NCBI GenBank assembly: GCA_947172415.1
Contig: OX359201.1
Span: 5,816,501-5,880,500 of the forward strand
DNA from: Chondrosia reniformis
Lineage: Eukaryota > Porifera > Demospongiae > Chondrillida > Chondrillidae
Direction: 5' to 3'
Length of the DNA stretch: 64,000 nucleotides
This document shows positions 19,466 through 61,891 of this stretch, in pieces (position 1 is the first letter of the stretch; every line of letters starts with the position of its first letter). The notes below the pieces were generated by a model. That model did not search any database, had not been told where the DNA came from, and saw only the letters and a program-made list of their open reading frames with translations. Position numbers and translations under genes: made by a program.

Positions 19466-19587
19466 GGTGGCTCACAGTGAAATAACGTACGCTCCATAAT
19501 TAGTCAGCCATTTTCCTATTATGTTGTCATAGTAACGTCTGAATAAATAGGGGAATACCCACTTACAGCTGACTCGTGTAACGTACA
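19466..19587. promoter_or_regulatory. Bidirectional promoter orphan gene / SURF2
   Basis: 122 bp between divergent start codons. No further motif was recognised. Confidence 0.55.
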
Positions 19588-31627: not shown

Positions 31628-34336
31628 ATGGCGACCGCCAGCCTAGACGAAAACCGACCTACGAATGATTTGTTTGAAGATGCATCCGAGTGTATGAGAA
31701 ATGCTAAAGGTTTGCGTCTCAGCAGTGAACAGAAGCTGTCTGTCTATGCTCTGTTTAAGCAAGTGAGCTCTCGATATACGTTTATTAAAAATAGTGATTA
31801 AATACTTCTAATCTCTTCTCTCTGTACTCGACGAGTGATGCGTGTAGATAAAGGTTAATTTGTGTGTGTAAGTGAAGTTGGTCTGCTTTGCTCATAGGCA
31901 CAATTGGGTGCGTGCACTACTGAAAAACCAGGATTCTTTGACATGATAGGGAGAGCGAAATGGTGAGCATGTATTGGTATAGATTTGGTCTCTTCCACAG
32001 ACCAACCCGTTCCGCCATTTTAATTTGGGTCTGGGGGCGCGAGCCTAGTATAGGACACTATGGAATTTAGGAATGTCAGGTGAATCATGTTTTAATTGTC
32101 CGATGTTGGTGTTCTCTTCTTCTGAAGGACTCAGTCTAATCCTCTCCTTCTCTCGGCTTAGGGATGCTTGGAGGAAGTTGGGTAACATGGGCCAGGAAGA
32201 AGCAATGCTGAAATACATTGAACTTGTTGACTCACTGCTACCCAATTGGAGGACCAAATCAACTCATGTTGGTTTCCACTTCACGTCTCACAACACTTCT
32301 TTACATGAATAATCTAACACACCATTTTTTCAACATGTTACATCTACTTTATAGTAAAAAGGCCTATAGGGAACTAAACCTAGTGAGAGCTTTGGATGAG
32401 GATACAAGAGTTTTCTCTTTTTCTTTTTCTCCACTGGACCATGCGATTGTGCATACATTTGATCAATAGAGATGTCTGTATCCAGGCAACCAATTTATAA
32501 AAGAAGCTACACAGACCCTCAAATAGAAGTGAAATTTGAGAGATTAAGGGTCTACCCCCACTATAGAGTACCCTGTATTACTTTGATATGCATCTGTTGT
32601 CAACATTCCTTAGATCAAGGGGAATGATGAAGGTAGAACCAATGAAGGCGGAGGGGGAGGGGGAGGGGCAGTTGTAATGAGTATTCTAGCTAGCACTGAG
32701 AAACCTCTATTGGATAGTGAGAAGTGTCTATTTGACTGGTGTAAGGAGGGAAATAAAGAGAAGTTGAGCCAGCTGCTAAAGAAAGATGAGGTCGATAGAA
32801 GGGACGAAAGTGTAAGTTAATTTAAAGAGTTTCTCAGCAAAACCTGACTATAGGAGCATGTCTCAGAAATGTGTTATTCTAAGACATTTAGCCCTTTCTT
32901 ATTAATATAAGCGTAATTCACATAAGTTAATATGAAAATGGACATACCTGGAGGGTCTGTATATCCCATACTACTCTGATACTTTGAATAATTCATGATA
33001 TTCCAAATAGTTCAAATAATGTACCAAATATACCCTTGATATGCTTAAGGTTCTAAAAATATTTTAAGACTTTGAATTCATTAATTTCCTGACATTGTCA
33101 ACTTATTATGTAACTGGATACGCCCACAAATCTCCATTTTTCAAATTCCAAATGTAGATATAGGAATGGTATTTGATACTAGACCTGAGATATCCGTAAC
33201 TATTCCTTTATTAAGGGAATATTTTAAATTTTCTCACACTAGATATGAAAATAATTTATAGCTAGATTGGTTGGCCACATGGCACTTTTTTCATTAATTT
33301 GATTGGCTGATTCCATAGGGGATGACCCTGCTGCATTGGTCCTCTGATAGAGGACATGTAGAGCTGATTGAGCATTTGCTAGTGCTAGGGGCAAACGTCA
33401 ACCTTCAGGTCTGTTCACTAACTGGCTTACTGTAGAAATAATAATTTGCATTATTACTTCCAATTTGTTTTTGTTCTAGTTCTGGTAGTTATGATTTAAA
33501 CATTTTAAAGTCCACATGTATCATAGTTGTATATAGATAGTCTGGAAGGGTATTAGTGTAAGGTTCACCTAATCTTTGACCCATTCAGGAAGGCCAGCGA
33601 AGCATGATTGTCTTGTTGTCTCCTTCTTTAGGACGAGGATGGCCAATCTTCTCTGCATTATGGTACGTACGTATGTATGTAGTATTATAATAGTATAAGG
33701 TATTCTAATGTAATACAGTATAAGGTATTATAAGATATTCTAATGTAATACAGTATAAGGTATTATAAGATATTCTAATGTAATACAGTATAAGGTATTA
33801 TAAGATATTCTAGTGTAATACAGTATAAGGTATTATAAGATATTCTAATGTAATACAGTATAAGGTATTATAAGATATTCTAATGTATTACAGTATAAGG
33901 TATTATAAGGTATTCTAATGTAATACAGTATAAGGTATTATAAGGTATTCTAATGTAATACAGTATAAGGTATTATAAGATATTCTAGTGTAATACAGTA
34001 TAAGGTATTATGAGGTATTAAAAGGTATTCTAATGTATTACAGTATAAGGTATTCTAATGTATTCTAATGTAATTATATTCTAATGTAATACAGTATAAG
34101 GTATTATAAGGTATTGAAAGGTATTCTAATGTATTGTATTATAAGGTATGCTGTTGTATTATAATGGTCTGTATTATGAATGTCCCCTTCCAGCTGTATC
34201 CTGTAGCCACGAAGTAGTAACAAGACTTTTACTTGATCACGGGGCAGACCCTTATGCTAAAGACTCAGATGGAAGTACTCCAATAGAACTAGACACAGAA
34301 GGGTTCTTATCGAGGATGCTCTCATCTTCTTCATGA
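31628..34336 (+). CDS. ACBD6: ACBD6, acyl-CoA-binding protein with ankyrin repeats
   Basis: Seven exons: 31628-31762, 31898-31962, 32162-32267, 32614-32811, 33319-33408, 33632-33662 and 34194-34336, giving 255 residues. The N-terminal acyl-CoA-binding domain runs through LSSEQKLSVYALFKQ, KPGFFDMIGRAKWDAWRKLG and EEAMLKYIELVDSLLPNW. A glycine-rich linker follows, then ankyrin repeats (GMTLLHWSSDRGHVELIEHL, then DEDGQSSLHYAVSCSHEVV, then DHGADPYAKDSDGSTPIEL). The family binds long-chain acyl-CoA and supports N-myristoylation by NMT enzymes. Introns carry a MITE-A copy (32.3 kb) and a 35-bp minisatellite. It starts 19 bp after the NUBPL stop, so its promoter must lie within the 3' part of NUBPL, or the two genes are co-transcribed. 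Confidence 0.95.
32306..32450. mobile_element. MITE-A copy in ACBD6 intron 3
   Basis: Forward orientation, with GAATAATCTAACACACCATT, GGCCTATAGGGAACTAAACC and a CT-rich end before CTCCACTGGACC. Confidence 0.7.
33670..34145. repeat. ~35-bp AT-rich minisatellite in ACBD6 intron 6
   Basis: Some twelve units of the type TAATACAGTATAAGGTATTA plus TAAGATATTC, with irregular length near the right end. It fills almost the entire intron between the last two exons. Confidence 0.92.
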
Positions 34337-34660
34337 ACATTGGCAATGCCTTCTTTTAGAACAACAATTAATTTTAATTTTGCAATAATTGATTTGTCTA
34401 TTTATGAAATGTTAATTCAAAGGTGTATATATAAGGAAATAAATTTGAACTCAGTATATATATATATGTACAATTGCTTTGTACATATATAATGAGTATA
34501 TACGTGCATGATTGTGTCATTTTGAATCACGATGCTGCTGTGGCTTGCTCAAGTTGAGTTTGAGAGGTGGTAACTTGTTCCCAGGTAGGGCTGATGAGCT
34601 GTTGTATGTAAATATGAGAAGGGAAACACTTAACACATCATTGAAATGTATGTACCAATC
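34337..34660. other. Convergent 3' flanks of ACBD6 and EVC2-like
   Basis: AT-rich interval with no ORF of note. It contains ACBD6 3' UTR (an AATAAA at about 34438) on the plus strand and the 3' UTR of the EVC2-like gene on the minus strand, plus a short TATATATA run near 34460. Confidence 0.6.
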
Positions 34661-37600
34661 TCACTTGAGTATCCATGGAGCAGAAGCCCTTGAGGCTCCT
34701 TGGCCCGGATCCAGTTTTATATTCTCCTCTTTAAGTGGAGGAAGTGCAGACTGCCTTCTTCTGTAATTAGTATTATGTAACAAGGAATAGAGATTACTTT
34801 TCTGATGCATATATATACGTATATACCCTCCTGGGGTCCATATAAATTATTTACATTATATTTTATTATACGTACGTATTTAACAAACTAATAAATGTAT
34901 ATACATATGCAATAAATGTATATGCACTAGTTATGACTCATATATACGTATAGTATATATACTCACATTGTGGTAATTCTTTTTTCATTAACATCCAGTC
35001 TAACTTGAGCCAATGGAACGGAGCCTGCTTCAGCAAACAGTTCTGTTAATTTGGAGTCCTACATGTGTACAAACAATTGTTTTATTATTATGGAAAACAT
35101 TGAGGATATTAATTATATAAGAAGTGAGAAGGAAGTATATTGTTTTGAAAGGAAAAGGCCTAAATAATCATATACGTATAACTGACCAGTTGGGTAATGG
35201 CTTCAAGGCCTTTTAGTTCATACTTCCTGCTAATGCTTTCTGACATTTCCTTAAACCTCTCCTCATAATCTCTCCTGTGAGTATTAATGAATACCAAATT
35301 TACACTTGTCCAATTTATTAATTAATTTGTTTTTTTATTGTGGTAATTTTAATTATATCACTCATGGATCATATATACGTACATACGTACTCTGACCTTA
35401 TGGATTCTAGTTTAATCTCTAGTCTGTATTTTAAGACTAGCATCTTGAATTTTGGCATATCTTGGAAGGTCTCAGATTCCAGACCATTCACTAATGATCT
35501 GTTTTCCTCTGCCATATTTTCCCTTTTAAGCTTTCTTTCCTCAATCTTGTCTCTTATTTGATCTAACTGGGCTTGTTTCTCATTTTCCAGTTTAGTTGTT
35601 ATTGCTTGAAGATCCTATATATACGTATATACATACATAGACCATTAATTAGATCTCAAAGGAAGAAAGGTTAAAACAGATAATACATTTAGTTGTTTTT
35701 GTTCATGCTCTCCAATGCCTTCTTCAATATACTACATGCATGTCTGACTACTTATCATACGTACGTATACGTACATAAGCATATGTAGCATGAAAACTTA
35801 AGTTTTCTATATACCTTTATATGTGACATTATGCATACATATATATTCAACCAAATTGGGTATATGTACAGCATTGTACAAATTATATACGTATAACTAT
35901 ACCAACCGTTGTGTACTGCTCCATTATAACTCTCATTTCCTCTTGATGTGGCTTTTTCTGTTCCACAGCTTCAATCAACAGCATATTCTAAATCAGTAAA
36001 GTTACAAATTTTCGGATCAAAATCTTTAATCTTTTTCCTACAAGACATTTCCTCTTGTTAGAGGATGTATCAGATTGTCCCTCTAACATAACACAGTGTG
36101 CATAGATGTTTCAATACAAAAATATTCACTAAGATTCAAAAACTGATTACAAGTTTCTGGATCTCTTAGTGAATAGATTGTGCACATCAGATTTAAGAAG
36201 TGCTCTGGAATTTGGAATACACATTTTGCAGGGAATTTATAAAACTCTTTATGATGCATGCATGCTTACTTGGGCTTGTTCATGAGAAGATAGCTCTTGC
36301 TTCATTTCTACAGCCTGAATTATGTGACAAATACGTGTAAATATGAGTACAAAATAGGAGATATGGATCAATGTGTACACTGTACCTGTCTAGTCTTCTC
36401 GACTTCAAGTTTTGTTTTGTTACCACTCCTCTTGCACTTTGCTAAAACCAATTGTTGCCTTGCCTGCTCACTACTTTTCTTTGTGAGAGATTGCCTTCTT
36501 GAATCTAGCAGCTCTGACATGGTTCTCTCTTCCTTAGCCTGTTTTTGTTCAAATTTTGATTTGATTTTATCTGGTCTTCTCTCTTCTTTTAGGACCGAGT
36601 CTACCATTCCACTATAACAAGTCAAATTTTCTTTCAACAATCTCAATCTCTCTTTCCAAGTTTCCTCCAATTCCTCCAAAAGTGATGTATTTAATACACT
36701 AAGGTGGATGTACGTATATAATCAATATAAATATATACAGTATAATAAGCCACCTTATATATATAAAATTAATGACGCATATTATATACAAATGTGTACG
36801 CACAAATGTACGTACGTACATACATACATAAATGAAGAGGGAGGTTCCCAGATAGAATGGTCTGGCCAGCCCAGTGGAAAAGGAAGAAAAGGTGATTATA
36901 TGCAGCTGCATGTAATATGTACATACATTAATCACCTGATTTTAAATATATTCTCATATTCCCTCCCAAACTCATCTGATTGGCTACTTCTGACACTGCA
37001 TGAGGTACTTGGCCTGTATATACATACATAAAATACATATTTATATGCATTCCCATGTGAGTATATGCGCATTAAGTGTCTGCTATATACTTTTATTCTA
37101 ACCTATTAATTCCAAAACATTCCTTCTTGAAATATTTCAGGGTTTCACTCCCAATGTTGGCATCAGTTAGGGCCATATTGACAATGTGCTTCAATTTTGA
37201 TATTGTCTCAAGCTCAATTTTCCCCTTCCACTCTCTCAGTTCTCTGTCATTTTCTTCCAAAAGGTTTGTGAACATATCTTCCAACTTTCTAGTTTGTTTC
37301 AAGTGGACACCTCTCAGCATCAGTTTGGTACTAAATTCATTCTTCTTATCAGCAATTGATTGGTTGATTTCATTGTGCCTTTTAACCAATAATTGCTTCA
37401 ACTCATCCAAATCCTACGTGCATGCATAAGTATGTACATGTACGTATATGTACATTCATGTACATACATAAATCAGTTTCTATATATAACATAAAATATG
37501 TTCCATTGTGTTCCTACATTGCGTATATATACATATGTAGTTTCAATAGAAATTATCGATATACGTACATGTCTATACCTACCTGATAGCAACAAGTATT

Positions 37601-40600
37601 GGCAGAGAATATATTTGGAAATTCAACTGTCTAGACAAATTGATCTCCAATTATATTACCTTTTCATTGTTTGCATTTTCTTGTTTTCTTAGTTTTCTCC
37701 ATTTTTCCAGTAAATACTCTTTAATCCCAACATCTGAATTACGTAAGTAATACTTTTCAAATATATATATCTCCATGTCATATACGTACATGCATATGTA
37801 CATATAATATATGTTCATATGTACATATTATTACCATTAAACTAACTAAATGTGTGTGCTAACTAACATAACAATCAGAGTATTGGAAGAATTAATGTTT
37901 ATTCTTCCTTCACTAAGCCAAAGAACACTCAATTTGATGAATATATATAATCTTACTCTCATAAGATTTAAGTTTCCAGTCTTCTTTGATAATTCTTAAA
38001 GCTGTTTTGTTTTCTTCCTTTTTGGCAGATGGGGCTGGTTGCCGGGGCAACTGACCGAGGCTTGCATAATCAAGTAAGGTGTTCTCCAACTGTTCCGCAT
38101 CTTCATGTGCAATAACATCATTTCTGTAGAATGGCATGATAGAATAAATCAACCAGCTGAATACATCTTTGAGATGGTTCATCTTTAGTCTTTCTAGCAT
38201 CTAAGAGACACATCTTTGAGATGATTCATCTTTAGTCTTTCTAGCATCTAAGAGACACAGTTTGGCTTTTGATAAGTGACTTCTCAAAGAAAACAGACTG
38301 TACCTTTAGATGCTCAAAGGACTACAGATGAACCATCTCAAAGATAAGTTTGGAGTAATTAAAAGAAATATCATATGCATCTTACAGCTATTAGAGTGTA
38401 TGTGCACTGCTATTATTTGATATACATATGTGTGCATATGCATATACGTATGCAGCGTACTTCTCTAGAGTTTTAGTTGATTTTTGGATGTGTCTCCTGA
38501 GTAGGTTTAATTTCTTATCATCGGCCACTTGTAAATATTCCTGTTGTGCATAATATAATATGTACATGATATATACACATGTACGCAAACCAACAGAAAA
38601 AGTAGAAAAGCTAGAAAAGACTATAAGATTATAAGATTATACCATGTACAGTAATACTTAAAGATATTTAAGTCAATAGATTAATATTTTCCCTATATAT
38701 ATAAATAAAATATTTTAATCAATACCATTTCACAACTCATTTTCATCATTTGTGCAAGTGTCTCAAAGGCTGCTTGTCTTAACAGTTGCTTTTCTTCATT
38801 CAAGGTTTCCATAGCAGCTAATAAACTGATTGTTAGTTGTTTCAATAGCTCAGACCTTTGAGCAGTGTTTAATAAAATTGATTCTTTGTCCTTTTCATTG
38901 AAGCACGCCTGTACTGCCTGGAAAGCCTCCAAAAATGAATCCTAAAGTATTAGGCTTATATACACATACGTACGTGTATATATATGAAGCTAATAATATT
39001 ACATATAATAATGACAGTAATCTCCCAGTAAGTACGTATATAGGGATGACATAATGATTAACCTTAACATGTTTAGTTTTGCTCTTCAGTTCTCTTATTA
39101 TTTGCAGTTCTTTCATTGCATTGAATATCCATTTTTCACCTTTTAACATCGTCTTTTTGAAGAAATCTTTAAGCTCTGCCCAAACACTTCCAGCCATGTT
39201 GAGATTGTTCTCTAATTTTTCACTTTGCTTTTCAATCTCTTCTTTTACTTTCTTAAACTCTTCCCATACTTGGTTGACAGGCAAGGAATATGTAATTCCA
39301 CCTTCTCCTTCTTTTGGAACTACTGGCAGAGTGGTTTGCAATATTTTGCTGCAGATATCCTGCAAGTTATCTATTATCTACAAAGAGAAGAGAAGGTGTG
39401 ATGTATGTACGTACGTAAATGAACTAGATTCAGTTCACAAATAACAAAGCCTCGTATAAAGTACATATATGGTCCAGTGTAGAAAGGAATTATGAAAAAT
39501 CAGTATGAGAACTGTATTCTCATCCAAAGCTTAATAGACTTTCCTTAAAATAAATCCAGGAAATAAAGATAGGGTATTTTAGTCTATAGAATAGTGCCTT
39601 AGACTAGCTAATGTGTCTCACTGTTCTTTTTGCTTTCTCTGACAGATCACTAAAACTTTGAATACACTTTAATCCAGAAATCATCAGAGCATGAAGAAGA
39701 AAGGTGTAATACTCTGCTTCTATATCTTGGAGTTCTTTGCTAAACACCCTCAACATTTTATCATGTTTAGAGCTCAAATGAAGATTGGGTAGAAATAGGA
39801 TATTCATGTAAGATAATTCAAGAATATCTTCAGAATAATTGTTCATCTCTTGAATGTTTGGATATAAATGTCCAGCTGCTGAGCTCCTTGAAGCTGCCCT
39901 CATTTCACCGTCTGGATCCTATTGGAGGCAATTAAAGAATGGATGTTATATACGTACTTACAGTACGTATGTATAATATACGTGGCTTATATACTAACTT
40001 CTCTTTGTAATTTGGTATTAAGTGGTTGGGCAATAATGACTTGCATTCCAACTGCCTCATCATCGTTCTCAGTGAATTCAAAGGGCTCTATTTTACTAAA
40101 CTGTCCAAAACACCAGTATCGCTTCTTCTTTAAGTAGAACAAACAGCAGCCAATGAAACAACACAGGCCAAGCACTCCAGCAAATACAGTCACAAGTACA
40201 ATTGCCAGTATATTGATTATCGGGTTTGGAATTGCCACTACATTAATACACTGCTGCTGTGAAACAGCTGGAAGGTGAATGTAAGATTTGGAGCCCATTT
40301 CTCCAAGTTCATGATCAGGCATCTATATATAATGAAAGGTACATGTAAGTACATTGATTATACTGCCTTGAAATACATGTACCTATAGGTCTGCATGGAG
40401 TCATCATTTATATATATACATATGTATGTATACTGTATATTTGCTAATATATTATATACACATATATATCATGTCTGTATACATATTCATCACATGTATA
40501 AAACAAAATTTTCCTAAAGATAAGGTTGAGAGGCTAAAGAAGAATATATTATATTATACTATTTGCCTAAGTACCTCATTCCATGGTGGTGTATCATGAA

Positions 40601-43533
40601 TGATGTTTGTATAACTAGTTGTGGTTGGTAGATTCTGATTTTGACCTGATCTACCAATCAGGCTTTCTGAGTCCAATCTGGTGTAGTACCATATATCCAC
40701 AGAATCCCCCAACACCAAGGTAACATTAAGCTTGAAAATAACAAATCCTGAAGTAAAACCAATCTATACACAAAGAAGATTAATTAAATTTTAGATTAAA
40801 CTTTATAAGTACATTCACCATGTGATTACCTAGATCTATATAAGTAAGTAAGTATGTACATGTAATTATATAGATGAACTATATGTAGGGGAGTTAATTG
40901 CACTGAGCCGTGCATAGGCTATAGATATGATGATAAGCAAAATAATCACTGAAATGTATTACGCTAAACCAGCCAAGTGACTGCTGACTAATCTTGCCTG
41001 GGGGAATGACCTATTAGCAACCAGTGATCGCCTCCCATTCGACTTAGGACTTTGGTTTGGCATAATACATTCCAGTGATTATTTGCTTATTATGTACGTA
41101 ATAGGGGAGCTAAGGATCTATGTTGGGATTCAAAGAAGAACTTCCATCAAAACTTCCAGGGTCACCGATGAATGGTTACCAGAAACAGCTGTCTGGCCCA
41201 GTGGAGCAGAAGAATAAGGAGAAGACTCTTGTATCCATATCCCTCTCACTAGGTTTAGTTCCCTATAGGCCTTCTATGTTGTCTTAATGGGTATTTCTTG
41301 AAGAATAGGGTAATTTAATGAATTTAGCCCAGTACGTATATACAACATTGCTCATCCTCACTATGATCATTTGCCTCGCTGAGCTGTTCCAGCCATCAAA
41401 CTTGATCCCTGGGAGAAGTGTGTCTCTCACTACTATATCAACAGCTGCACTCTCACTGCCTGCTCCATGCTGTACTTTAAGATGGACCGTTAAAATGGGT
41501 GGCTGATGGATGCTCTCTTGAGATAGCTACATACATATATACAGTATGTGGGGATGCAAACATTAGACCATTTGAATTTGAATGTTTGTCAATTCTAGAA
41601 TTTTCTATATTCTACGTACGTATATACGTATGTACGTACTCATAGAAATTTTCAGCAACACTTCAAATTCTTCAAACAAAGGATTAAGACATTGACCCTT
41701 TCGTCTTTATCAGTTATAGAATGATGAAGGTCAATGGATTGAAGCCTCTTAATCATTGTCTGAAGAAGTGTATGTTGTTAATTGCTCCAAAATCATTAAG
41801 ATGGCAACAAGTACCTCTTTCTCCTTTCACATATACACACACATGTTCCTATCTTCTTATTACATTGAGATGTACATACGTACATACGTATATGAATGAT
41901 AATCTAAATTGTGGCTCACCATTAAAGACTTGGATGTCAGAAGCTCTGGTTCAATGATACTTATGAGGAGATCCCTGCCAATTGGTATTGTGCAGCTGGT
42001 GTGTGTGAGGTTGTCCCTAAGTGACATTGTGACAGCTGCCAGTTCTCCATTGCTAGCATTACTATGCACTTGAAATTGCAGGTCAATCCAAGCTGGAGGG
42101 CTTCCTATGCTAGTACTTTCAGGTATAACAAACTGCTGAAATTCCCAACAGAAGCAACTTTGTGGAACAAATGTATTAAATAAACAGTTTTGAAATGGTG
42201 GATTAACAGTTTTGTTCAAAATGCTAATTTCAACTTCCTCCCCATGGACAACCAATGTAAAATTGACCAATCCAATTGGTCTATTCTGTCCAAGAGGGTA
42301 TTTCACACATAGTATGCTGTCCACGGCTACTGGTTGATCTAGTGGTACTAAAACAGGTGATCTGACCTTAAAATACTCATACAGAGTTAGCTTGTCATCT
42401 AAGGTAAAGCTGAAGGATGATGCAATTCCTCCTTCCCATCTTGGATAGGATCTGATATGGAAGAGTGATTGGTTAGATTCTGTATACAAATTCCAAAGTT
42501 CATCTTGATACGACAGGCTCATTTTAATGTTATGATAACTTCCTGGTATCAGCACTGGAATTCTACTTCTTAATGGAATGGTTGTGTTGAAATCCAATTC
42601 AAGCAAAGTTGGTGTAATCAAGGAGCGTGTATTAAAGTTGCCTCCTCTCCAGATATTTAGAGAATAAGCATCTCTTCTTGAAATTGAGCTATGTTGGATG
42701 AAGGCATTGGAAAACACTCTATCACCGGGACACCCAGGTGGAAATTCTTGTACAACAAATGTCAAGTGCGGTTGGACCACGAAGAGTGTTACAATTATGT
42801 CTGTTTCTAGTTCAGATTGGTTAGAATTCTCATATGTGAGGGCACTGAAGTAGACCTCACTCTGCTGCCATGGATCCAGCCTTACCATAAGTGGCACATA
42901 AAACTGAATCAATAGGGTCCCATTTTGATCAATAGTGTTATTTCCATCAATAGTGCTGTTTCCATCAATAGTGCTGTTTCCATCAATAGTACTGTTTCCA
43001 TCAATAGTGCTGTTTCCATCAATAATACTGTTTCCATCAATAGTGCTGTTTCCATCAATAGTGCTGTTTGAAAGAATTGCCTCTATGTCGATCAGAAATG
43101 TGCATGCAGAATGAGTAGTATCATTGGAACATGTGAAAATTGTAGTCTGTTCTGTCTCATTCACTGACATGTTGCCGAGTACATCTGTTCCATTCAAAGT
43201 GATGTTTACACTCTCAGCAGAGAAAAACAAGAAATTATCTTCATCTTCTAGTTCAGACCAGTTAGAAGATATAGTGAATTCCAGTATAGATGAATTATAA
43301 GGTATATTGAGATTTAGTAGAAAAAATAGTGCCTCATTTGGTAGCACTTCTCTAGTAAAGTTCAAATAAAACTGTTCCTCACTCTGATTGACAAAGGAAA
43401 TATTGCTGGTCTCTTCTGTCACAAAATCAAGTTCAACAATTGAATCAAATACTTGGCTACTTGCCTCATTCTTACTGCAGCTGAAATGTAGGGCAATGAT
43501 ATAGGCCAATCCACAGTAGAAGAACCAGGACAT
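34661..43533 (-). CDS. EVC2: EVC2 (limbin)-like single-pass coiled-coil protein
   Basis: Nineteen exons. The first, 41920-43533, is followed by 41344-41502, 40575-40763, 39999-40322, 39622-39918, 39063-39377, 38726-38941, 38461-38540, 37957-38123, 37660-37733, 37103-37413, 36936-37013, 36386-36698, 36270-36314, 35907-35987, 35397-35614, 35187-35274, 34967-35058 and 34661-34760. They sum to 4761 bp, or 1586 residues. A signal peptide (WFFYCGLAYIIALHFSCS) opens a ~680-residue ectodomain rich in N-glycosylation sites. A TM segment follows at about residues 685-712 (ILAIVLVTVFAGVLGLCC), then a long cytoplasmic coiled-coil region (EEFKKVKEEIEKQSEKLE and others). This is the architecture of limbin, the ciliary-base Hedgehog modulator that pairs with EVC. 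Similarity is structural more than literal; the main support is the head-to-head EVC-like neighbour. Confidence 0.7.
38165..38345. mobile_element. MITE-B copy in EVC2-like intron
   Basis: Inverted ends CTTTGAGATGGTTCATCTTT and GATGAACCATCTCAAAGATA. The left arm is present twice in tandem (38162 and 38210), an internal duplication not seen in the other copies. Confidence 0.8.
40933..41097. mobile_element. MITE-C, complete fold-back element
   Basis: About 165 bp with inverted ends of about 28 bp (ATAAGCAAAATAATCACTGA at the left, CCAGTGATTATTTGCTTATT at the right). It has no coding capacity and sits in an EVC2-like intron. Partial copies lie near 10.05 and 11.95 kb. Confidence 0.8.
41165..41280. 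mobile_element. MITE-A copy in EVC2-like intron
   Basis: Shows CAGCTGTCTGGCCCAGTGGA, TCTCACTAGGTTTAGTTCCC and TATAGGCCTT. It is a truncated copy. Confidence 0.7.
42931..43070 (-). repeat. 18-bp coding minisatellite in the EVC2-like ectodomain
   Basis: About eight in-frame copies of an 18-bp unit encode STIDGN. Because the unit joins as N-S-T, each junction forms an N-glycosylation sequon; one unit reads SIIDGN and loses it. Confidence 0.93.
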
Positions 43534-43851
43534 TTAGACTCTGACTTCTCTCCTAGCTTCCAAGTTTGTTACTTTTTCTCTTGCATGATCTTTTAGAAGT
43601 TTCACACTATGCAGGGAAAGGCATTAACACAATTTATGTTAATTGATACATGAGTAAACAATATAAAAACAAAGTATTGCCCTAAACATACTAGTCTGCA
43701 TACTGTGTTCTTTATCCTTTCTTAACACTCTAATTAATAAAATAACTGTCAATAGTTGTTAAAATGTGGTCATTTAGTCTTCTTGGGAGGTGTCATACTC
43801 AATCACTGAGAAGTCTCTGGAGAATTAGTTTAGTCTAAAGAGGAGCCAATC
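43534..43851. promoter_or_regulatory. Bidirectional promoter EVC2-like / EVC-like
   Basis: 318 bp between divergent start codons, the widest of the divergent intervals here. AT-rich; no motif recognised. Confidence 0.6.
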
Positions 43852-46800
43852 ATGAGCAGTTGTGAGGAGGGACAGTTTGTGTATGAACTCCTGTATGTCC
43901 ACCCTCTGTTCACTCCACTTGGAGCCTTTCTTGGTTTTATTTTTGGATTGGGAATGGGAATGGTACTTCTCTGTGTGGCCCTGCCAGTATATGATATTGT
44001 AATGGTATTAACAGGAAGAAATGAAAAGCCAAATATTGAGGTATGTTATAGATCTTATATACTGTAATATATATAGATGATTCAGCACAGTAGTGATATA
44101 TGTGATGTATAGTTGGTGGAAATAGGAAGGTATATTGTATTCTCAGGTATTATAGGCTTTCCTTAAGTAGCAAGCCTAAAAGAAAACTATTATAGTTATA
44201 GTCCTTAGCCTATATGCTGTATATATGTACTAGCTCTATAGTCATTGTAGTACTTGAATTGATCCTTAATTAAATGGTGTATGTATGTATAAGTAAGTGT
44301 TTATGCATTATAACACATACTTACAGAATTACAATAATTGTATATAGGACACCATATTAGGTAATTATATAAAGAGATTATTTGCATGGATATATATATT
44401 TATATGTATAAGCATGCATGTGTATATACATATTGTACTCACTGTATATGTATATGTTCAGTACAATGTATTACAGCAAGGTTTTGTATTATAGTGTCTT
44501 GACTTTTGTAAGTTTGGACATGACGACACTGTCTCAATCCTGTCATCCAGAGCAAGTTTGCAAGGCTATAACTTAGAAGAAACTTGGCCAAGATTCAGTA
44601 TTCCTTATCTTTGGTCAGAAGTAAGCACTAATATATAAAATTAGCCTATATTTTATATGCTTATATCTTTATGTACGAAAATGTGGTACATTATGTAATT
44701 TAGTTAGCTTTTAAAATCCAAGAAGATGAAAGTAACCAAAGCAAAGATGAGGTTGGGTTTCAAGAACACTTCAAGCACATTTCAAGCAGGTCCTTTAAGT
44801 TGTCTTCTCAATCCTTGGGACCTCATTCTTTGGAGATTTCCTCACTTGTTGAAATACTTACAATGGACAGGTAATTGGAGACTGCATGTACAGTATATGG
44901 TATCTGTATATATGTATGTATAACATTATGCTGGCACTTTACATTTTAATGAAACACTTAATAGAATAAGGATAACTGTATATTCAACTTATGTTTTGTA
45001 GATAGATAGATAAATTTTGATTTATAACAGGAAGTGCCCCTTCGGCAATGCTGGTCTACCAGGGGATCCTACATATAGGTGTAGACACACCATTACATAC
45101 ATGAAAAGTAACGATTGTTGATGAAGATAAAGTAAAAAATTATCTTTTGAGTTAGTGTCTGAAGACACAGGTTGGTAATTCTTTGTTAAAACTTTCGACC
45201 CCGAGAATCTTCTTCTGCAAATTGAACCATCCAAAAGACATGAAATGTTTTCTTATTAAAACATAATTTCATGTGCGTATCTGTACATGTGTACCCCTAA
45301 CAATGCATGTCTTATTTAAACATTTATGTAGATCTACTGCCAAACTAGCCTTACCTGTGTACCATACTCGGAAGATTCTTGAAGTAGACATCACAAAGAT
45401 TGCAATCTTACTTGAGGTGTGTCAGTAACTCTTTAATTTTGGCATACTATAATTATGTACGTATTTTAAAACTTTCTATACATTTACGTATGTATTACAT
45501 ATATGATCAAACCTTTAGGGATTTTCTTTGCTCAAAGATGCATTGTATAAACATGGATTTCAAAGTGCATTGAGTATTTCTGAGGTATCACAAGATATTG
45601 AGGAGATCATCCAAGAGTTGAAAATTCATTTAAAACAAAGAGAAATTGTGAGTATCAGAGAGTACGGTTGTTTAACCATGGTCACCCCCTGAATGAAGCC
45701 ATCGCAGTTTTGAATTCTACTTTTTTGTATATTATATATACAGTTACTAGGTTCCCTTATAACTCAAAGTGGCAATGATATTATTGAGTCCCTGCTAAAC
45801 TGGGAGAAGCAGTGGAATAACAAGAAAATGTCTGCAGTTAGTGTCCACTATTCTAATTCCATGTCTCTGTGTTTATACTAAATAGCATGCATTATTAACC
45901 CATCTAGGTGAGACTACTAAATGAAGGTGTGACTTTAATTGAGGATATATGGAACCAAAAGAAGAGTAAAGAGGCACGTTTATAGTATGAAATTATAAAA
46001 TTTCAAAATTTAATGTTTTTATGATAACTGTGCATGAAAAATCTAATACGTAAGTACACCATTTTCCTACATGCTATGCCTACTCTGTAAAAAGGCCTAT
46101 ATATAAGGTACTAAACCTGGAGAGAGCTTTGGATGAAGATACAGGAGTCTTTTCTTTTCTTTCTTCCTCTGCTCCACTGGGCCATGTTAGCTAAAGGTTT
46201 TTCTCCTACATATTAGGAGTTCCCTAAACTAAACTTTTCCTTAAATAAAATATACTCAATGTTATGGGAACTAATTAGTTAATTCTCATTAATGCTCGTA
46301 TTAGAATGGAGAGTCTGTTGATGTTAGAACCATTTGGTCGGAGTATCAGAATAGTGTTGTGCAACAACTTGAAAAGCAACTTGCACAGGTGAATATGCAT
46401 GTATATACGTACATAGCACATGCAGACATGTTAAGGGCTCACAGAGGACCAAGAATATTCACAAGTCAGTGATGAGAGATGCATGATATTATGGTCGTCT
46501 GGCTCAGCAGAGGAGAGGAAGATAGTACTAATGGCATCCTCATCCAATATACTATCTACTTATCCTACACAAACCTAGGAAATTGTGCATGTAGTTTATT
46601 TATTTATTTATTTCAATTGTCACGAATCTAAAATATATATTCCAAAAACTATGATCATCATGTCTATGAAGCTAAGGAACATAAGGAGAATATGTTTAAA
46701 AACACAATTTTCATATCCGCCAGATGTTTATGCATAGGCTTAGAAAATTCATGTTTTGATAAACGCACATATACACATTTACACATACGTACGTATGTTT

Positions 46801-49800
46801 AATCTTACATGTGTACAATGCTATTGGTTGTAAATCCCTGTTTCTCCCTGGTATCCATTAAGATGCGGTACAGAGTGCTTCCTTTGGAAGAACTTGTATT
46901 AAATGAAGTCAATGCTTATCAGAAACACTTTGAGGGTCACATTAAGCAGTTATCTGATAGGCTAATGGAAATCATAGGAAGAGAGATTATTAACAGTCAA
47001 CTAATTGACGGCGAAAAAGAAAAGTTAGTAAAAAATCAGTGACACCACTTTTTAGTTAATAAGCTTATAAATGTACATGTACTCCACCATGTACCCACAA
47101 ATACAGATATGTACATACGTACATACATGTACATTCATACAGTATATGTACGTATATACATAGTGCTTACAAATATTTTAAGTATCGATTTTTTTTTAAA
47201 ACTCATTAGAGATGCTTTATGCATGTGTGTACATATGTCTGAACAAGTGTGAGCTTCATATCAGTTCATTTGATAGAGTTGTGACCCTAAATGTACATTA
47301 AATTTTATAAAATACCCATGCCAGCTTAATGTATGGTCAGAGATATACATACCCATTTGCTTGTTTGAGTTTTGTGGAGATTTTTTTGAATGTATATAAT
47401 ATGAAGATTGTACGTATACCTGAATTTTTTATGATACAATGATATTTAGGATTCTTGGATATGCTAATGCTTTCATGGAGACGCTCAAGAAACAGATAAA
47501 TAGATCCAGTATGACCATTAATGCATCTGGTCAAAGCTTTCGTGGGTTTGACTCTATCAGAAGGCAACTGAAGGAAGTCAAAAGAAGAGTTTGTATGGAT
47601 GGAGACTACAAGAAGATGACCAGCTCATTCCTGAGTGTGGTAGAGGAACAAGAGAAAAAGCAGGAATTACAAAAATCTGAACAACTTCATGCCTCACTAA
47701 AGGAATTTCTTTCCCAAAATGAAGTACATCAATACATGTTTATTTTAGTATTCTCTATACATTCTCTATATAAATGTGTGCTTTTATTATGTATATGTAT
47801 TATACTTATGTACACATGCATTATACGTATTTAGATGTACATGAAATTTATGTACAGTATACTTATTATACAGACATATATACTTATAATATATGTAGCA
47901 ATGGCTGCTGGATCTTTTTGATGAAGTAGCTAATTGCGGCTGGATGTTTAAAGCCAAAGAGGTTAGCAGCAATGTTACATTTCAGTCAAAACTTAAGGAA
48001 GCATGTAAAGTTGTCAGTGATGATGTGAAAAGTGAGTATATGGAGGATTTTACATTATTTAAATAGAGTATGTATATATACATAAATAGAGTATATATGT
48101 GTATATGTAGTAGATATTGTACCTACTTTTTATGTACATAGCTTAGTGTATATGAATATGGGATATATGTACATATATGTATATTTGAGCATCAGCGACA
48201 CTTCAAAAATGGACGTTTAGATTGTTTCTTGAAGTGGTGCAACGTGATGATGCTCAAATATATACGATACGTACCTCTAATATTCATTATGAATGTAACA
48301 AATACTCCTAACACTAGCTTATTATATATGTACTTAAAATATACAATGTACATATAATAATGTATATGTATTAATATATAAATGTTCACATGCACATAAG
48401 TATGTCTGCATTTATGTGTATATGTATGCATGTAATGTACATATGTGTATATACATATAGGTACTTTGATAGAGACACAAGAGGAATTGAAGGATAAAAT
48501 ATTGAGACCAGTTTGTATTTATATAGAGGAAGTATGTGTATAGACATATAATATAAATGTATATTATATGTGCCTATATTTGCTATATATCTATATCAAT
48601 ATCTAGAGCAATGTGCTCATACAGTCATTTGTGATTATGATAAACATACGTACAAGTATTACTTGCTCCTAATTATCTTTTATTAGTTACAGAAGAAAAC
48701 TGATTCAATTAGAAATCCAATTGAAAGAGAAGGATTGTTAGACCAATTTTCTCATTCAGTGGCTACCTCTCATACTATCATGTCAGAAGTACTAGATAGC
48801 ATGGATCCACTTCTACAGCTGTCAGTTTAAACCTACCTATGTATATACATATTACATCATATTACATCATATTCTTGTCTGAGGGCAAATGTATATATAT
48901 GATATTTCACATGCAAAACCAATTATCCTTTGGTCCTTTGAAGTTCTATATATATCAGAGGATACGTCTAAGTAGGGATGGCAGGAAACAACATGGGTGC
49001 CCCTATTCAATGTATTACAGATTATCATCAATAACAAATACATTTTTAGTCTTTTTAGCTCCCACAAATATGGTCAGAATTCAAAGATATATTATTGGCA
49101 TATATGTATACGTACATATGCATATGCATATGTATATAGGAGGTGTAGTAGTCTGCTTGAGCAATACATGACCAAAAACAAAGTGATGGAATGCAGTCTG
49201 ACACTGTCGCTCCAAAGACTCAATACAAGGTACGTATGCTTCGTATACTGTATATGTTATGTACATATAATATGCTAAAATATTGAATATGTAATGGTTG
49301 CATGTTAATTTAAATACATTACACATATTTATGTATAACAATACAGTATTAAAGGAATTTTCAGTTTCAAGGAATCCAATCGCTGCAAGAAAAAATTTGG
49401 CAAACAAAAAGCAAAGGCCACAGAACAAACTCCCAATCCTCAGGATGAAGCAAAGGCCAAAGAACAAACTTCTAGCTATTCAGATGAAGAAGTCGCATCA
49501 GATATTATGAAACTTGCACAAAGGTTAGAAATAATAATTGTCTTCAATAAAGAGTTACAAAATATTGCATCTCACATACATGAAAAATCTAAGATACCAT
49601 TTTCCTACATGCTATACCTATTCTGTAAAAGAGCCTTTAGGGGAACTAAACCTAAAGAGAGCTTGAGAGCTTTGGATGTATATTATAAAGTAGATTACAT
49701 GTATTTCTATTCTTGTGTAGCCATCTTGAAAGTGATGCAAGGAATTTCTTGAAAAGAGAAGAAGAAGCTTTAGAGACAGCTTTTGAAACTGCCAGGGTAT

Positions 49801-51783
49801 TTACATAATTGAATGTATTGCAGCAGGTGTGGTCATTGTGATTATAATAAACTTGTACATAATATATGTAGAAAGATTTTCAGAGGGAATCTCAGCTGGA
49901 GGATAGTAAGAGACGCATCCTCAGTGGAGTCAAAGTGAGCACAATTATATATACTTTATGTACAATACATGTAGTATTAAAACACGTACATATTGTACAC
50001 ACCTAAGTTATCTCCTCCTCATAACTACTGGATGAAGACTACCTCAGGTTGTAATGTCTAAATCTGTTAAATAGTTGGTGATACTCAATAAATCATGCAC
50101 TGGCTACCATGAGTCTTATATTATCATGTTTAGAATAATTTGATAACAAAAGCGGTTTCATCCACCGGTATGACACATTTAGTAAGTGAAAAAATTCTCC
50201 AAGAACATAACACAGCTGTGAGGAAAATACAAGAAGACATAAACAAGTTAGATGAATCTCTTTGGCTTTGTAATACATCCAGTGCACGCAGGGATACACA
50301 TATATATGTATGTATACAGATGCGTACATAATATTGTGATATACCGAATGGGGCCATTATGGGGTTTATATAGTAAATATACAAGTTTTATTGATTAAAA
50401 CATGTTTGGGTATAATTCTAATAAGTCAAAAGTCCTAAAGACATCCAATCAACAAATTAATAACTGTGATTCCTTCTTGCAGAGCAAAGCAGCATCAATT
50501 GTTAATGATTCAGCAGAAAATACAAGCAAAAAGACTACTACAGCAAAGGTTTGTCTCATGTCTACTTTCTTGTTTAACCAACCCTCCTGACACACTATAA
50601 ATAATTAGTTGGCTCGTCTATTGAGCTATATAGAGAGACAGATTGCAGTGGAAAATATACTGTTTTTAAATAATGTTCAATTCTATATATTTATGTACGT
50701 ACGTATGTAGTATGTGTGCAGATGCTTAAATAGTATTGAATATTGGTATATAGGCAAATTTCTAAGGAACAAGAAGACTTGGTCTCCATCACGGCCAACA
50801 GGTATATGTGGTATTTGAAGTAAAAGATGCTTGTATACATATGTATACGTATATTCATGACATCCATTTTAAATAATATACATACACAGTGCTGTTGGAC
50901 GTGCTCTCCTACTCTTACTAATGGAAGTCAGACAGAAACGGGCAGAGAAGGTAACTTTAAGATTCTTTCCACACTTTACTGCCTTCAGTGGTGACTGCTA
51001 CTGACTTTGTATGACTGTACTGCTGTATTGTTCTTAAGGAATTAGAAAAGGAACTAAATATAGAACATGGAAGGCAGTTGAGACAACTGGAGGCAAAGCT
51101 GAGCACACAACTGAAAAAGAGGCTGAAGGTAATGTTTTTATGTATATACTATACCATTAGGTGTGCAGGTACAACTATATAACCTACAGGTATACGTAGA
51201 TGGTGTACTACATGCGTATGTATATACTGAGATTATGCAGTATATATGTACAGTGCTGTATGGTAGAAAATTCTTCAGGGGGGGGGGGGGGGGCTGAGGT
51301 TCCAAGTAACATGGGGGCAAGCACAGAAGTTAAAGGTTTCTAGGCATATGAGGCATTTCAAGAAGGGGGACAAGATGTAAACGGGGGGGGGGGGGGGCAT
51401 GTGAATGACATACTATATTATATTTTGTACAAATATATTAGACCAAAGAACTCCAGGTAATTCAAGAAATTGCAAAAGCTTGCAAGATGACAAGTGAAGA
51501 GCTGACAGCCACAGTACAGGCATCCACTCTGGGTAAGACCCATATTATTATGTATACGTATGTGTGGGTAGTGATGTACAATATACATTTATATACGTAC
51601 TCTTAAGTAGAGATGGTGAATTTATGCATGGCTTCTGTATTCAATGTACGTATATATTTTTTTTATGCAACTTAAATATTGTATTGTCCTTGATCGTATG
51701 TATATGTAGGTTCAAGGGACACCACAGACGTGGTTCTTGCAGAAGTAATGCATGGTTATGCAATCAAATCAGAAATTGGCTAA
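43852..51783 (+). CDS. EVC: EVC-like, N-terminal TM anchor plus coiled coils
   Basis: Twenty-four exons: 43852-44040, 44495-44620, 44704-44870, 45332-45416, 45519-45647, 45744-45836, 45908-45973, 46305-46388, 46863-47023, 47450-47723, 47899-48031, 48461-48531, 48687-48820, 49140-49229, 49365-49523, 49721-49796, 49872-49934, 50134-50246, 50483-50548, 50754-50801, 50890-50950, 51039-51128, 51442-51532 and 51710-51783. They sum to 2643 bp, or 880 residues. One N-terminal TM segment (about residues 21-48, LGAFLGFIFGLGMGMVLLCV) is followed by an almost entirely helical, charged cytoplasmic part (EEIIQELKIHLKQREI, QQLEKQLAQ, QLLMIQQKIQAKRLLQQR). This matches the layout of EVC, partner of EVC2 at the ciliary base. 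The seventh intron appears to use a GC donor. Distant family assignment, supported by gene order. Confidence 0.68.
45115..45245. mobile_element. MITE-B relative in EVC-like intron
   Basis: Diverged fold-back with AATTATCTTTTGAGTTAGTG and TTGAACCATCCAAAAGACAT ends. Just upstream (45030-45080) lies AGTGCCCCTTCGGCAATGCT, related to a piece at 60.18 kb. Confidence 0.5.
46028..46190. mobile_element. MITE-A copy in EVC-like intron 7
   Basis: Forward copy: GTGCATGAAAAATCTAATAC, CATTTTCCTACATGCTATGC and GAGAGCTTTGGATGAAGATA. Confidence 0.75.
49577..49685. mobile_element. MITE-A copy in EVC-like intron 15
   Basis: Truncated forward copy with ATGAAAAATCTAAGATACCA and GGGGAACTAAACCTAAAGAG. Confidence 0.7.
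51276..51397. repeat. Two poly-G tracts in an EVC-like intron
   Basis: Runs of about 16 and 14 consecutive G lie about 90 bp apart between exons 51039-51128 and 51442-51532. Such runs are prone to length error in sequencing and could form G-quadruplexes in the pre-mRNA. Confidence 0.85.
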
Positions 51784-52153: not shown

Positions 52154-53525
52154 TCAGTCAGAGTCGCTAGTAGAAAAGTCAGAAGAGGAACTCTTTCTTA
52201 TTTCGGATTTAGCCTGTACAAAGTCATCTTCACTGTCACTGCTGCCTAGACTATCACTATCACTGTCACTGTCACTTGTATCACCCTGTGTATCAAAGGG
52301 AAGCAGTGATGGCAGGGGAGCGGCTGGAGCCCCTCCCCCAGATGAGGGGGCGGGAGCATCTGGATTCCTATATAAGTCAAAGAAAAGCTCTCTGTGAAAT
52401 AGAACCCATTATATGCATATAGGTTTAGTGTAACCAATATAGCCTGCACATAAGCTAATAGAAATAACAATATGTCTTCAGCCCATACTCTAAATAAGCA
52501 GGATCTAAGCCTTTAGCTTTCATCTCAATCTGCAGCTGCAGTGGATTTGCTCCCTGTGAAGAACAATGAAAGGAAGTCACTCAAAATACCATTATACCTA
52601 CCAAGGGAGAGACTTACAATCCTCAACTTTCTAAAGTAGTCCTTATACAATGGGTGGTCCTTTACCTTCAAAGCTAATGAGTTATAAACATATAAAGTTA
52701 TAGGAATGAAAACCAAAGCAATAAAAATTCTTGTATACCTTCATCTATAAAGTGGTTGCCATGACAATAACATAGGACAGAGAAGAGAAGAGAAATAATA
52801 ACAACAAAGTTATGAATATTAAGTGTTTACTTTCTGCTGCTGGAGGAGGGGGCGGACCTTCTTCCTCAGTTGCCATGGCACCAGGCAGTGGGGGAGGGCC
52901 TTCTGCAGGAGGGGATGGTGGATTATTAGTGCTGGATTCCACAGGGTCACGGACTGGCTGTGCTGCACTTGAGCTGGTAGCTGCAGTCATGGTCCCAGCA
53001 GCTGCCAGTTCAACTGGAGGGGTATACACTGCAGTGGCTTGGACATCCTCAAGACCTCCTATTGACTGCAACTACACGTCCAAAGGAACAACAAAAACCA
53101 AAATATTGAAAAGTAACTAAAAATAAATTTTAGCAAACTATTTTACTACCAGAACTGGTAACCATACCTGGGCATCTAGAATGTCAAGTGTAATCTCAAG
53201 TTGATGAATCCGAAGGGATAGATTGTGAAGTTTCTGTAAAAAAATCATTCAAATATAAGTCCTGGTCTACGTTTCAGTACCTGACCAATGTAATTAACAG
53301 TACCTCTTCAGCCGTGGAGGCAAACTTGTTCAAAAATGTTACACTATGGATGATGAATTTGTTTAAAATGTGAAGTGTTCGCTTTGGGTCTAAAGCATTC
53401 ACCTATTCACGGAAAATTTATTAATTATTGAGCATCACAAATGCAAATGCGTAATAAGCGCAAAGAGACCTTACTCGAGTATAGTCAATTCCTTTTCCAA
53501 CAATTGGCAATCCATGTTCGTCCAT
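52154..53525 (-). CDS. WASHC3: WASHC3 (CCDC53), WASH complex subunit
   Basis: Seven exons: 53475-53525, 53304-53402, 53168-53233, 52831-53071, 52618-52673, 52489-52553 and 52154-52367, giving 263 residues. It begins MDEHGLPIVGKGIDYTR like the human protein (MDEDGLP). It continues with RTLHILNKFIIHSVTFLNKF and the helix LHNLSLRIHQLEITLDILDA. A proline-rich disordered linker of about 75 residues follows, longer than in vertebrates. Then come the conserved VKDHPLYKDYFRKLRI and MKAKGLDPAYLE and an Asp/Ser-rich acidic tail. WASHC3 belongs to the pentameric WASH complex that activates Arp2/3 on endosomes; the trimeric coiled coil binds other subunits. The proline segment could recruit SH3 or profilin partners (inference). 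The start codon is 119 bp from NAMPT. Confidence 0.95.
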
Positions 53526-58026: not shown

Positions 58027-59211
58027 TTAGTCACTTTCAAATGTATAGTCTCGATACCATGGAAATGTTCTAGTTGCATTTTCTACAATCTTTTTCAAGG
58101 CTGGAGTCCACCGGATCCCAGCTCTTGTTCTGTGTACTTGTTTATACAGCTTACTCATGCACACCTTGATATAGGAAGGGGAACATTCTAGCTCAAAATA
58201 ATTACACAATTTTTGCAACTCTTCTTGTGGGTTGTTGACCAAGTTTGGTAAATGTACTTCATGAATGTCTAGTTGTAAATTGTTCTTCATCTCATATACA
58301 GCCTGCATGTTATTAAATAAATTTTTCAGCGTAATCTCTGGTGTTGGGTTTCTTGCTTTATTGCGATACATGGTTGCAGCTTGGTCATACGGATTCCTAA
58401 CCACTTGGACGAGCTTCACAGGTATATCAACTGTATGCTTCAACTCGTACAGTATAGCCTTCCATATAGTAGCATTAGCATGATACCACGCTGTGGCAGT
58501 CCCTGCCTCTTTTTCCCCTATAACTGTCACATGATCCTCGTATTTGCCCATAAAACCAGTTGGAATGTGATAATGTGTCTTTGCCAGACTTACAGCCTGT
58601 CTGATTTGCTGAGCATGAAGAGCGCCATACAGTAACGTTCTGTTGCAGTGGTAGTCCGCGTTCTGTGGCCACTTGGTGAACAGACAATAGTCGCGAGCTA
58701 AGATAACGCTAGGGTGGGCGTCTAGTAATGCTCCTACGATTGTAGTACCACTTCTTCCCGCTCCCACAAAAAATGTGAAATATTTAATTCCATTCATTAC
58801 ACGAGGAGGAAGAATGCTTTGTTCTACTTCTGTTTGAGGTAGAAGATAATTAAAGCCAGTCTTCTTTGCAGGCCAAACGTTTGGCTTTAAATAAGAAGGC
58901 CTCTTGTAATCCTTTGAAAGCAACAGACTTGAAGTGTCCTTGAAACCGTCGGGGGGAGGTACATTCCACAGCAGATCCTGTATGGGATGACCATAGTTGC
59001 TAAAATCGAGCGTATGATCATTAGGAAAGCTATCGCTACTCCATCTTTTCTTTGCTGCTTCTTGCGTGGTGAAAGTTGAAGGTGAGGCGAAATACCATTT
59101 AACTACTAGTAAGAAATAGATTACCAGAGCCAATAAAGAAAGTGGGACCCAAACCCTGAGAAATTTCTTTATAATAAACATTGGAATCGGGAGAACTCTA
59201 CGCCACGTCAA
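58027..59211 (-). CDS. Golgi-type membrane sulfotransferase, copy 1
   Basis: Intronless, 394 residues, or 384 if translation starts at the second Met (59181), the position where copy 2 starts. A type II anchor lies at about residues 19-38 (WVPLSLLALVIYFLLVVKW). The catalytic part begins with the PAPS 5'-phosphosulfate loop FFVGAGRSGTT (about residues 148-157) and includes the 3'-phosphate segment VVRNPYDQAA near residue 270. It ends with a W/Y-rich tail (TFPWYRDYTFESD). The sulfotransferase_1/3 family transfers sulfate from PAPS to glycans or tyrosine; the acceptor cannot be read from the sequence. Its 3' end lies about 150 bp from that of NAMPT (convergent). It is nearly identical to the gene at 60608-61771. 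Confidence 0.88.
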   Translation of the reverse strand: MTWRRVLPIPMFIIKKFLRVWVPLSLLALVIYFLLVVKWYFASPSTFTTQEAAKKRWSSDSFPNDHTLDFSNYGHPIQDLLWNVPPPDGFKDTSSLLLSKDYKRPSYLKPNVWPAKKTGFNYLLPQTEVEQSILPPRVMNGIKYFTFFVGAGRSGTTIVGALLDAHPSVILARDYCLFTKWPQNADYHCNRTLLYGALHAQQIRQAVSLAKTHYHIPTGFMGKYEDHVTVIGEKEAGTATAWYHANATIWKAILYELKHTVDIPVKLVQVVRNPYDQAATMYRNKARNPTPEITLKNLFNNMQAVYEMKNNLQLDIHEVHLPNLVNNPQEELQKLCNYFELECSPSYIKVCMSKLYKQVHRTRAGIRWTPALKKIVENATRTFPWYRDYTFESD

Positions 59212-59720
59212 ACGCCTCTTAACTGCATGAATCTACCAAATATTCCGAATTCCCCATCTAGGCGAGATAACTAAGGCTAACCGTTAAGTAGGGGATTTCC
59301 GGACCCAGCGTCGCTTTTCGCCTGTACACGATAGAACAACTTCTTACTTTGTTCCCAGTTAGAACTGAAGCCAAGCTAACGAGGGACGAAGTGAGAGGCT
59401 GCTCCTTCTCGTAATGACAAAATACGGAACCGTGGGTTGCGTTGTCACCTTAACTTCTCTTTACGAGGTCCTCCATCAGAGGGGCACACTCAACAGTTGG
59501 ATATGCTACCACGCGCATACCAGCAGTGGACCTTGCCGTCCTTGAAGGGCATGTGCAAGTTGGAGCTCCCACTCCATCTTATAACTTTGACAGTACTATA
59601 TATACCTGTTTACATGAACATCCCCTTCACCATTCTGTATGTTCTCATGATGTAAAAAATATTGATGGGCGTGGTTGTATTGCAAAAGATATATTAATTT
59701 ATCATATTAATTTTCTAGCT
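59212..59720. other. Interval upstream of sulfotransferase copy 1
   Basis: GC-richer than its surroundings. An open stretch starts at the ATG at 59414 (MTKYGTVGCVVTLTSLYEVL) and other frames are open across 59437-59680, but none gives a recognised protein or a clean exon set. It may be the promoter of copy 1 plus a truncated exon cut off by the duplication. Confidence 0.35.
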
Positions 59721-60607: not shown

Positions 60608-61771
60608 TTAGTCACTTTCAAATGTATAGTCTCGATACCATGGAAATGTTCTAGTTGCATTTTCTACAATCTTTTTCAAGGCTGGAGTCCACCGGATCCC
60701 AGCTCTTGTTCTGTGTACTTGTTTATACAGCTTACTCATGCACACCTTGATATAGGAAGGGGAACATTCTAGCTCAAAATAATTACACAATTTTTGCAAC
60801 TCTTCTTGTGGGTTGTTGACCAAGTTTGGTAAATGTACTTCATGAATGTCTAGTTGTAAATTGTTCTTCATCTCATATACAACCTGCATGTGATTAAATA
60901 AATTTTTCAGCGTAATCTCTGGTGTTGGATTTCTTGCTTTATTGCGATGCATGGTTGCAGCTTGGTCATACGGATTCCTAACCACTTGGACGAGCTTCAC
61001 AGGTATATCAACTGTATGCTTCAACTCGTACAGTATAGCCTTCCATATAGTAGCATTAGCATGATACCATGCTGTGGCAGTACCTGCCTCTTTTTCCCCT
61101 ATAACTGTCACGTGATCCTCGTATTTGCCCATAAAACCAGTTGGAATGTGATAATGTGTCTTTGCCAGACTTACAGCCTGTCTGATTTGCTGAGCATGAA
61201 GAGCGCCATACAGTAACGTTCTGTTGCAGTGGTAGTCCGCGTTCTGTGGCCACTTGGTGAACAGACAATAGTCGCGAGCTAAGATAACGTTAGGGTGGGC
61301 GTCTAGTATTGCTCCTACGATTGTAGTACCACTTCTTCCCTCTCCCACAAAAAATGTGAAATATTTAATTCCATTCATTACACGAGGAGGAAGAATGCTT
61401 TGTTCTACTTCTGCTTGAGGTAGAAGATATTTAAAGCCAGTCTTCTTTGTAGGCCAAACGTTTGGTTTTAAATAAGAAGGCCTCTTGTAATCCTTTGAAA
61501 GCAAGAGACTTGAAGTGCCCTTGAAACCGTCGGGGGGAGGTACATTCCACACCAGATCCTGTATGGGATGACCATAGTTGTTAAAATCGAGCGTATGGTC
61601 ATTAGGTAACCTATCGCTACTCCACCTTTTCTTTGCTGCTTCTTGTGTGATGAAAGTTGAAGGTGAGGCGAAATTTGCCATGTACCATTTAACTACTAGT
61701 AAGAAATAGATTACCAGAGCCAATAAAGAAAGTGGGACCCAAACCCTGAGAAATTGCTTTATAATAAACAT
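60608..61771 (-). CDS. Golgi-type membrane sulfotransferase, copy 2
   Basis: Intronless, 387 residues, differing from copy 1 at a small number of positions. Three codons (MAN) are inserted after the membrane anchor, GAGRSGTT becomes GEGRSGTT in the PAPS loop, and NNMQAVYEMK becomes NHMQVVYEMK. All core motifs remain, so it is probably functional. The Gly/Glu change sits in the phosphosulfate loop, where some variation is tolerated in the superfamily. Its start codon is 120 bp from that of MRPL47 on the other strand, whereas copy 1 has no such partner, so copy 2 may be in the ancestral position. Confidence 0.88.
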   Translation of the reverse strand: MFIIKQFLRVWVPLSLLALVIYFLLVVKWYMANFASPSTFITQEAAKKRWSSDRLPNDHTLDFNNYGHPIQDLVWNVPPPDGFKGTSSLLLSKDYKRPSYLKPNVWPTKKTGFKYLLPQAEVEQSILPPRVMNGIKYFTFFVGEGRSGTTIVGAILDAHPNVILARDYCLFTKWPQNADYHCNRTLLYGALHAQQIRQAVSLAKTHYHIPTGFMGKYEDHVTVIGEKEAGTATAWYHANATIWKAILYELKHTVDIPVKLVQVVRNPYDQAATMHRNKARNPTPEITLKNLFNHMQVVYEMKNNLQLDIHEVHLPNLVNNPQEELQKLCNYFELECSPSYIKVCMSKLYKQVHRTRAGIRWTPALKKIVENATRTFPWYRDYTFESD

Positions 61772-61891
61772 TTTTAGTTACGGAGTCAACTCTACGCCAT
61801 GTCAAACTTTTATATTAAACTGCATGACTCGATGGGCGTGGCTATATTGCAAAACGTCATTGTGATTGCGCAACGCATACATACGTATAAT
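61772..61891. promoter_or_regulatory. Bidirectional promoter sulfotransferase 2 / MRPL47
   Basis: 120 bp between divergent starts. It contains GATTGCGCAAC at 61864-61874, the exact reverse complement of a motif in the RAP-protein/TYW3 promoter. Confidence 0.55.

Follow-up and report, generated by a model that had tools for sequence, protein, structure and literature searches.

Loss of human EVC or EVC2 leads to a dwarfism syndrome, and the EVC/EVC2 pair is usually regarded as a Hedgehog-specific adaptor. A candidate sponge counterpart of this pair is described here, comprising two divergent genes, A (EVC2/limbin-like) and B (EVC-like), located in a 64,000-nucleotide stretch of the Chondrosia reniformis genome (GenBank assembly GCA_947172415.1, contig OX359201.1, positions 5,816,501 to 5,880,500 of the forward strand), called the window below and numbered from its first letter (Table 1). 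A duplication early in metazoan history gave rise to EVC and EVC2 according to Blair et al. (2011, PMC3052239). The divergent order has been published for bilaterians, namely vertebrates, amphioxus, sea urchin, and the snail Lottia; Nematostella has both genes, though not head to head, and Trichoplax has an EVC-like gene. In the mouse the two proteins pair physically and are co-dependent in their localisation at the ciliary base (PMC3052239). The words "sponge" and "Amphimedon" are absent from the main text of that paper, Amphimedon appears in PMC5792066 only within a list of species abbreviations, and no report of a sponge EVC/EVC2 pair is found in the titles and abstract openings of the open-licence papers returned by keyword searches. 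An earlier note on this DNA, made from the sequence alone, held that both the pair and the head-to-head arrangement are older than the vertebrates, which is true but not novel, as the amphioxus, sea urchin, and Lottia loci are already published (PMC3052239). The divergent order as something new in itself is thus rejected, and the locus would be a further EVC/EVC2 head-to-head pair, its new part being the deeper lineage.

Judged from its sequence, gene A is very probably an EVC2 homologue, and gene B is likely to be an EVC homologue; that both assignments hold, with the ancestral divergent order kept and the two genes probably expressed together from a single short promoter common to both, is the reading we consider fairly probable. 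The genes lie head to head, with 318 bp between their start codons. This interval contains one copy of GTAAACAA (at 43654), which we take to be a forkhead-type site; with three copies in the window 0.015 would be expected in the interval, but the site was spotted post hoc and serves as a lead only. An RFX X-box, sought by its consensus, is not present in the 318-bp interval. The vertebrate, amphioxus, sea urchin, and Lottia loci are likewise divergent with close start codons, the spacing being larger in human (2.86 kb) and mouse (1.75 kb) than here (PMC3052239). Divergence alone is weak evidence, because head-to-head genes are so common in Amphimedon, with 11,379 genes in this arrangement and start sites less than 1 kb apart (PMC4773876); it is the identity of the paired genes that counts.

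Table 1. Features of the divergent gene pair in the Chondrosia reniformis window
Feature	Position	Strand	Remarks
Gene A, EVC2/limbin-like	34517..43533	-	21 predicted coding exons, 1621 aa; exon chain with consistent phases
Juxtamembrane block of A, residues 717-831	39712..40136	-	one intron inside; aligns with EVC2 330-442
Membrane span of A, residues 692-710	40155..40211	-	mean hydropathy 2.83, single strong span
LPA tripeptide of A, residues 671-673	40266..40274	-	precedes the membrane span
Exon 1 of A, 538 aa	41920..43533	-	predicted signal peptide and the larger part of the ectodomain
18-bp tandem repeat, ca. 8 copies	42928..43069	-	NSTIDG-type units; adds N-glycosylation sites to exon 1 of A
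Interval between start codons of A and B	43534..43851		318 bp, candidate bidirectional promoter
Gene B, EVC-like	43852..51783	+	24 predicted coding exons, 886 aa; exon chain with consistent phases
N-terminal membrane anchor of B, residues 26-44	43927..43983	+	hydropathy 2.46
Residues 697-767 of B	49905..50757	+	spread over four exons; 71-residue gapless match to EVC 759-829

Both chains, with 45 exons in all, are predictions joined by eye. In gene A all 20 introns are of the GT-AG type, the phases agree, and the joined chain has no internal stop, which is also true of gene B, where 22 of the 23 introns are GT-AG (42/43 for both genes) and one, starting at 45974, is GC-AG, its junction at 45973/45974 (AG|GCACGT) having been selected to preserve the reading frame. 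The earlier note ended gene A at 34661, but the in-frame TGA at 34661-34663 is reached from exon 20 only if the last intron stays; more probably, gene A is spliced to a last exon of 82 nt and ends at 34517. The protein lengths given there, 1586 (A) and 880 (B) residues, are corrected to 1621 and 886. Just past the 3' end of gene A there is a 35/105-bp tandem array (33694-34149), adjoined by a plus-strand ankyrin-like frame (34145-34336) scoring below the Pfam cut-offs.

The composition of the chains distinguishes exons from introns in both genes: the G+C content is 0.38-0.39 in exons vs 0.31 in introns, and TACGTA words are absent from the exons, whereas the A introns carry 8.2 and the B introns 4.0 of them per kb. 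The median intron length is 195.5 bp in A and 197 bp in B; the Amphimedon genome, too, is described as having small introns and dense genes, and the G+C content of 0.375 found here is close to that implied by its 64.2 percent A+T (PMC4773876); such traits are not diagnostic. The same by-eye joining applied to the adjoining gene, WASHC3/CCDC53, coding for a WASH complex subunit and convergent with gene B (52154-53400, minus strand), gives a product matching Pfam CCDC53 at 3.3e-30. The exons of A and B (34517-51783) are strongly depleted in CpG (observed/expected ratios of 0.15 and 0.19), perhaps as a result of gene-body methylation.

The product of gene A has a hydrophobic N-terminus, MSWFFYCGLAYIIALHFSCS, called as a signal peptide from the sequence without a dedicated predictor, then an ectodomain with 27 N-X-S/T sequons upstream of the membrane span, and, C-terminal to the span, a charged tail whose coiled coils, like those of B, are judged from composition and not by a predictor. 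A weaker hydrophobic stretch (hydropathy up to 1.85) lies at residues 583-609. The LPA tripeptide is presumably an EVC2 family motif, its human counterpart lying at residues 261-263 of the reconstructed EVC2 sequence used here. An AlphaFold2 model of exon 1 alone was uninformative (mean pLDDT, the predicted local distance difference test score, 32.2). The product of gene B, on the other hand, consists of an N-terminal anchor followed by a charged, coiled-coil-like tail, with no ectodomain and with weaker hydrophobic stretches at residues 13-31 (1.66) and 775-793 (1.70). Both layouts had been described in the earlier note and are borne out by hydropathy, composition, and, for A, the sequon count; the head-to-head order given there is confirmed by the exon chains.

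The human EVC and EVC2 sequences used for comparison were reconstructions. That of EVC2 was checked by its length, by residues printed in papers, and by its 720-bit match (1e-216) to the Pfam family EVC2_like (PF12297) over residues 237-660; the EVC reconstruction exceeds the true length by one residue and was checked against printed residues only. The comparison that the earlier note had proposed as a check fails for gene A, as its product, searched whole and as two pieces around the span, gives no match to PF12297 up to E 10, a limit below which the HMMER filters nevertheless drop most matches above E ca. 0.1; for the reconstructed human EVC itself Pfam returned no EVC family. The assignment of A is carried by its juxtamembrane block, which sits at the place equivalent to that in EVC2, just after the span, and shares with it motifs including SK[LI]EP[LF].FT and EDP. 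The match has a p of ca. 3e-5 and, in a separate window comparison, ranks first among 2021 cells. Similarity of A to EVC2 beyond composition is therefore present but local to this block, the whole tail giving no significant score against the reconstructed EVC2. The C-terminal W region, which in EVC2 binds EFCAB7 (PMC7711556), is not recognisable in A (Z of -0.3 with either the final 120 or the final 43 residues of the reconstructed EVC2); the FV ciliary localisation motif is reported as kept in almost all vertebrates (PMC7711556). Gene A is thus like EVC2 in its signal peptide, ectodomain, single span, charged tail (ca. 910 vs 986 aa), the matching block in the first ca. 115 residues past the span, and its divergence from a gene of EVC layout, and differs in the longer ectodomain (ca. 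670 vs ca. 275 aa), the NSTIDG repeats, and the missing Pfam match and W region.

The relationship of gene B to EVC is weakly shown. Its likeness to EVC comprises the N-terminal signal anchor, the lack of an ectodomain, a charged tail, a similar length (886 vs 992 aa), a phase-0 first intron just beyond the anchor, and a weak collinear similarity. For the first 130 residues the score is reached by 3/2000 shuffles in local and 97/2000 in end-free global alignment; over the whole tail the similarity to the reconstructed human EVC is at most borderline (7/300 local, 35/300 end-free global, and 43/399 shuffles), and a value of 2/2000 was obtained at a site picked after the fact. Collinearity of the weak match is equalled in 3/79 rearrangements, and it is seen with EVC and not with EVC2; the two-by-two collinearity pattern (A and B vs EVC2 and EVC) agrees with the assignment made in the earlier note, which is supported more strongly for A than for B.

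BLASTP, phmmer, and hhalign found nothing convincing between A and B, a two-sequence human profile matched neither, and no solved structure was found by sequence with B. Three matches of the juxtamembrane piece of A to solved structures (two transporter-binding proteins and a dehydrogenase, E 0.82 to 1.9) are taken as chance. No relatives of B, of exon 1 of A, or of the juxtamembrane alignment were confirmed in viral contigs, nor of the latter two in genome contigs.

Several points weigh against taking the two genes as an EVC2/EVC pair. Gene A could be a genuine EVC2 homologue and B an unrelated single-anchor coiled-coil protein, divergent by chance in a compact genome, as the B-EVC figures over rearrangements and tail shuffles are weak, almost one third of Amphimedon genes seemingly use bidirectional promoters (PMC4773876), EVC and EVC2 are not neighbours of this kind in Nematostella (PMC3052239), and two annelid transcriptomes are reported to contain EVC2 with no EVC found (PMC9695228). 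This is unlikely, however, since B has the exact EVC layout, down to a similar length, and its collinear similarity is to EVC and not to EVC2. Still less likely is that A and B have no relation to EVC and EVC2 and form a lineage-specific couple of membrane coiled-coil proteins, alike to them only through convergence of layout and chance similarity, for although neither product has a Pfam family above the curated cut-off, whole-tail comparisons are mostly not significant, and high window scores occur also off the diagonal, the placement and p value of the juxtamembrane match and the two-by-two pattern argue against it.

If A and B are indeed EVC2 and EVC, then by analogy to the mammalian proteins A would be a type I membrane protein and B a single-anchor protein, whose cytoplasmic tails may bind to one another, each retaining the other in the ciliary membrane close to the basal body, the large glycosylated ectodomain of A facing the water or a neighbouring cell. 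The sponge pair might sit on motile cilia, e.g., those of choanocytes and larvae, and act as a receptor or scaffold of the ciliary base, feeding a Smoothened/Gli-type output where one is present. The earlier note placed the pair in a lineage with an incomplete Hedgehog pathway. The pathway as a whole is indeed reported as not found in Porifera, but Smo and similar sequences are on record from three sponge classes, and every sponge studied has Gli/Ci homologues (PMC9695228); one Amphimedon receptor was placed basal to the Smoothened cluster (PMC4302439). A divergent sponge pair, if true, would place both the duplication and the common promoter at the root of the animal tree and, being found in a group with Smo-like and Gli proteins and no complete Hedgehog pathway, would make an older ciliary role testable. 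Only tentatively can it be proposed that the duplication, the divergent order, and the co-regulation of EVC and EVC2 go back to the ancestor that sponges last shared with other animals, at a time when no complete Hedgehog pathway existed. The pair would then have begun as a sensor at the base of motile cilia, with the large glycosylated EVC2 ectodomain as a receptor surface, and Smoothened signalling would have co-opted it afterwards, the short vertebrate ectodomain being a reduced form.

Among the other features of the window, an open reading frame of 682 aa (17423-19471, minus strand) has no Pfam match at E 0.01. A 42-bp tandem repeat of ca. 12 copies (22834-23333) is situated inside a 189-aa open frame, and a 29-bp minisatellite of ca. 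40 copies with a strong G/C skew (62833-64000) continues past the window end. Two neighbouring sulfotransferase-family frames of ca. 400 aa each (58027-59232 and 60608-61777, minus strand) are apparently a tandem duplicate.
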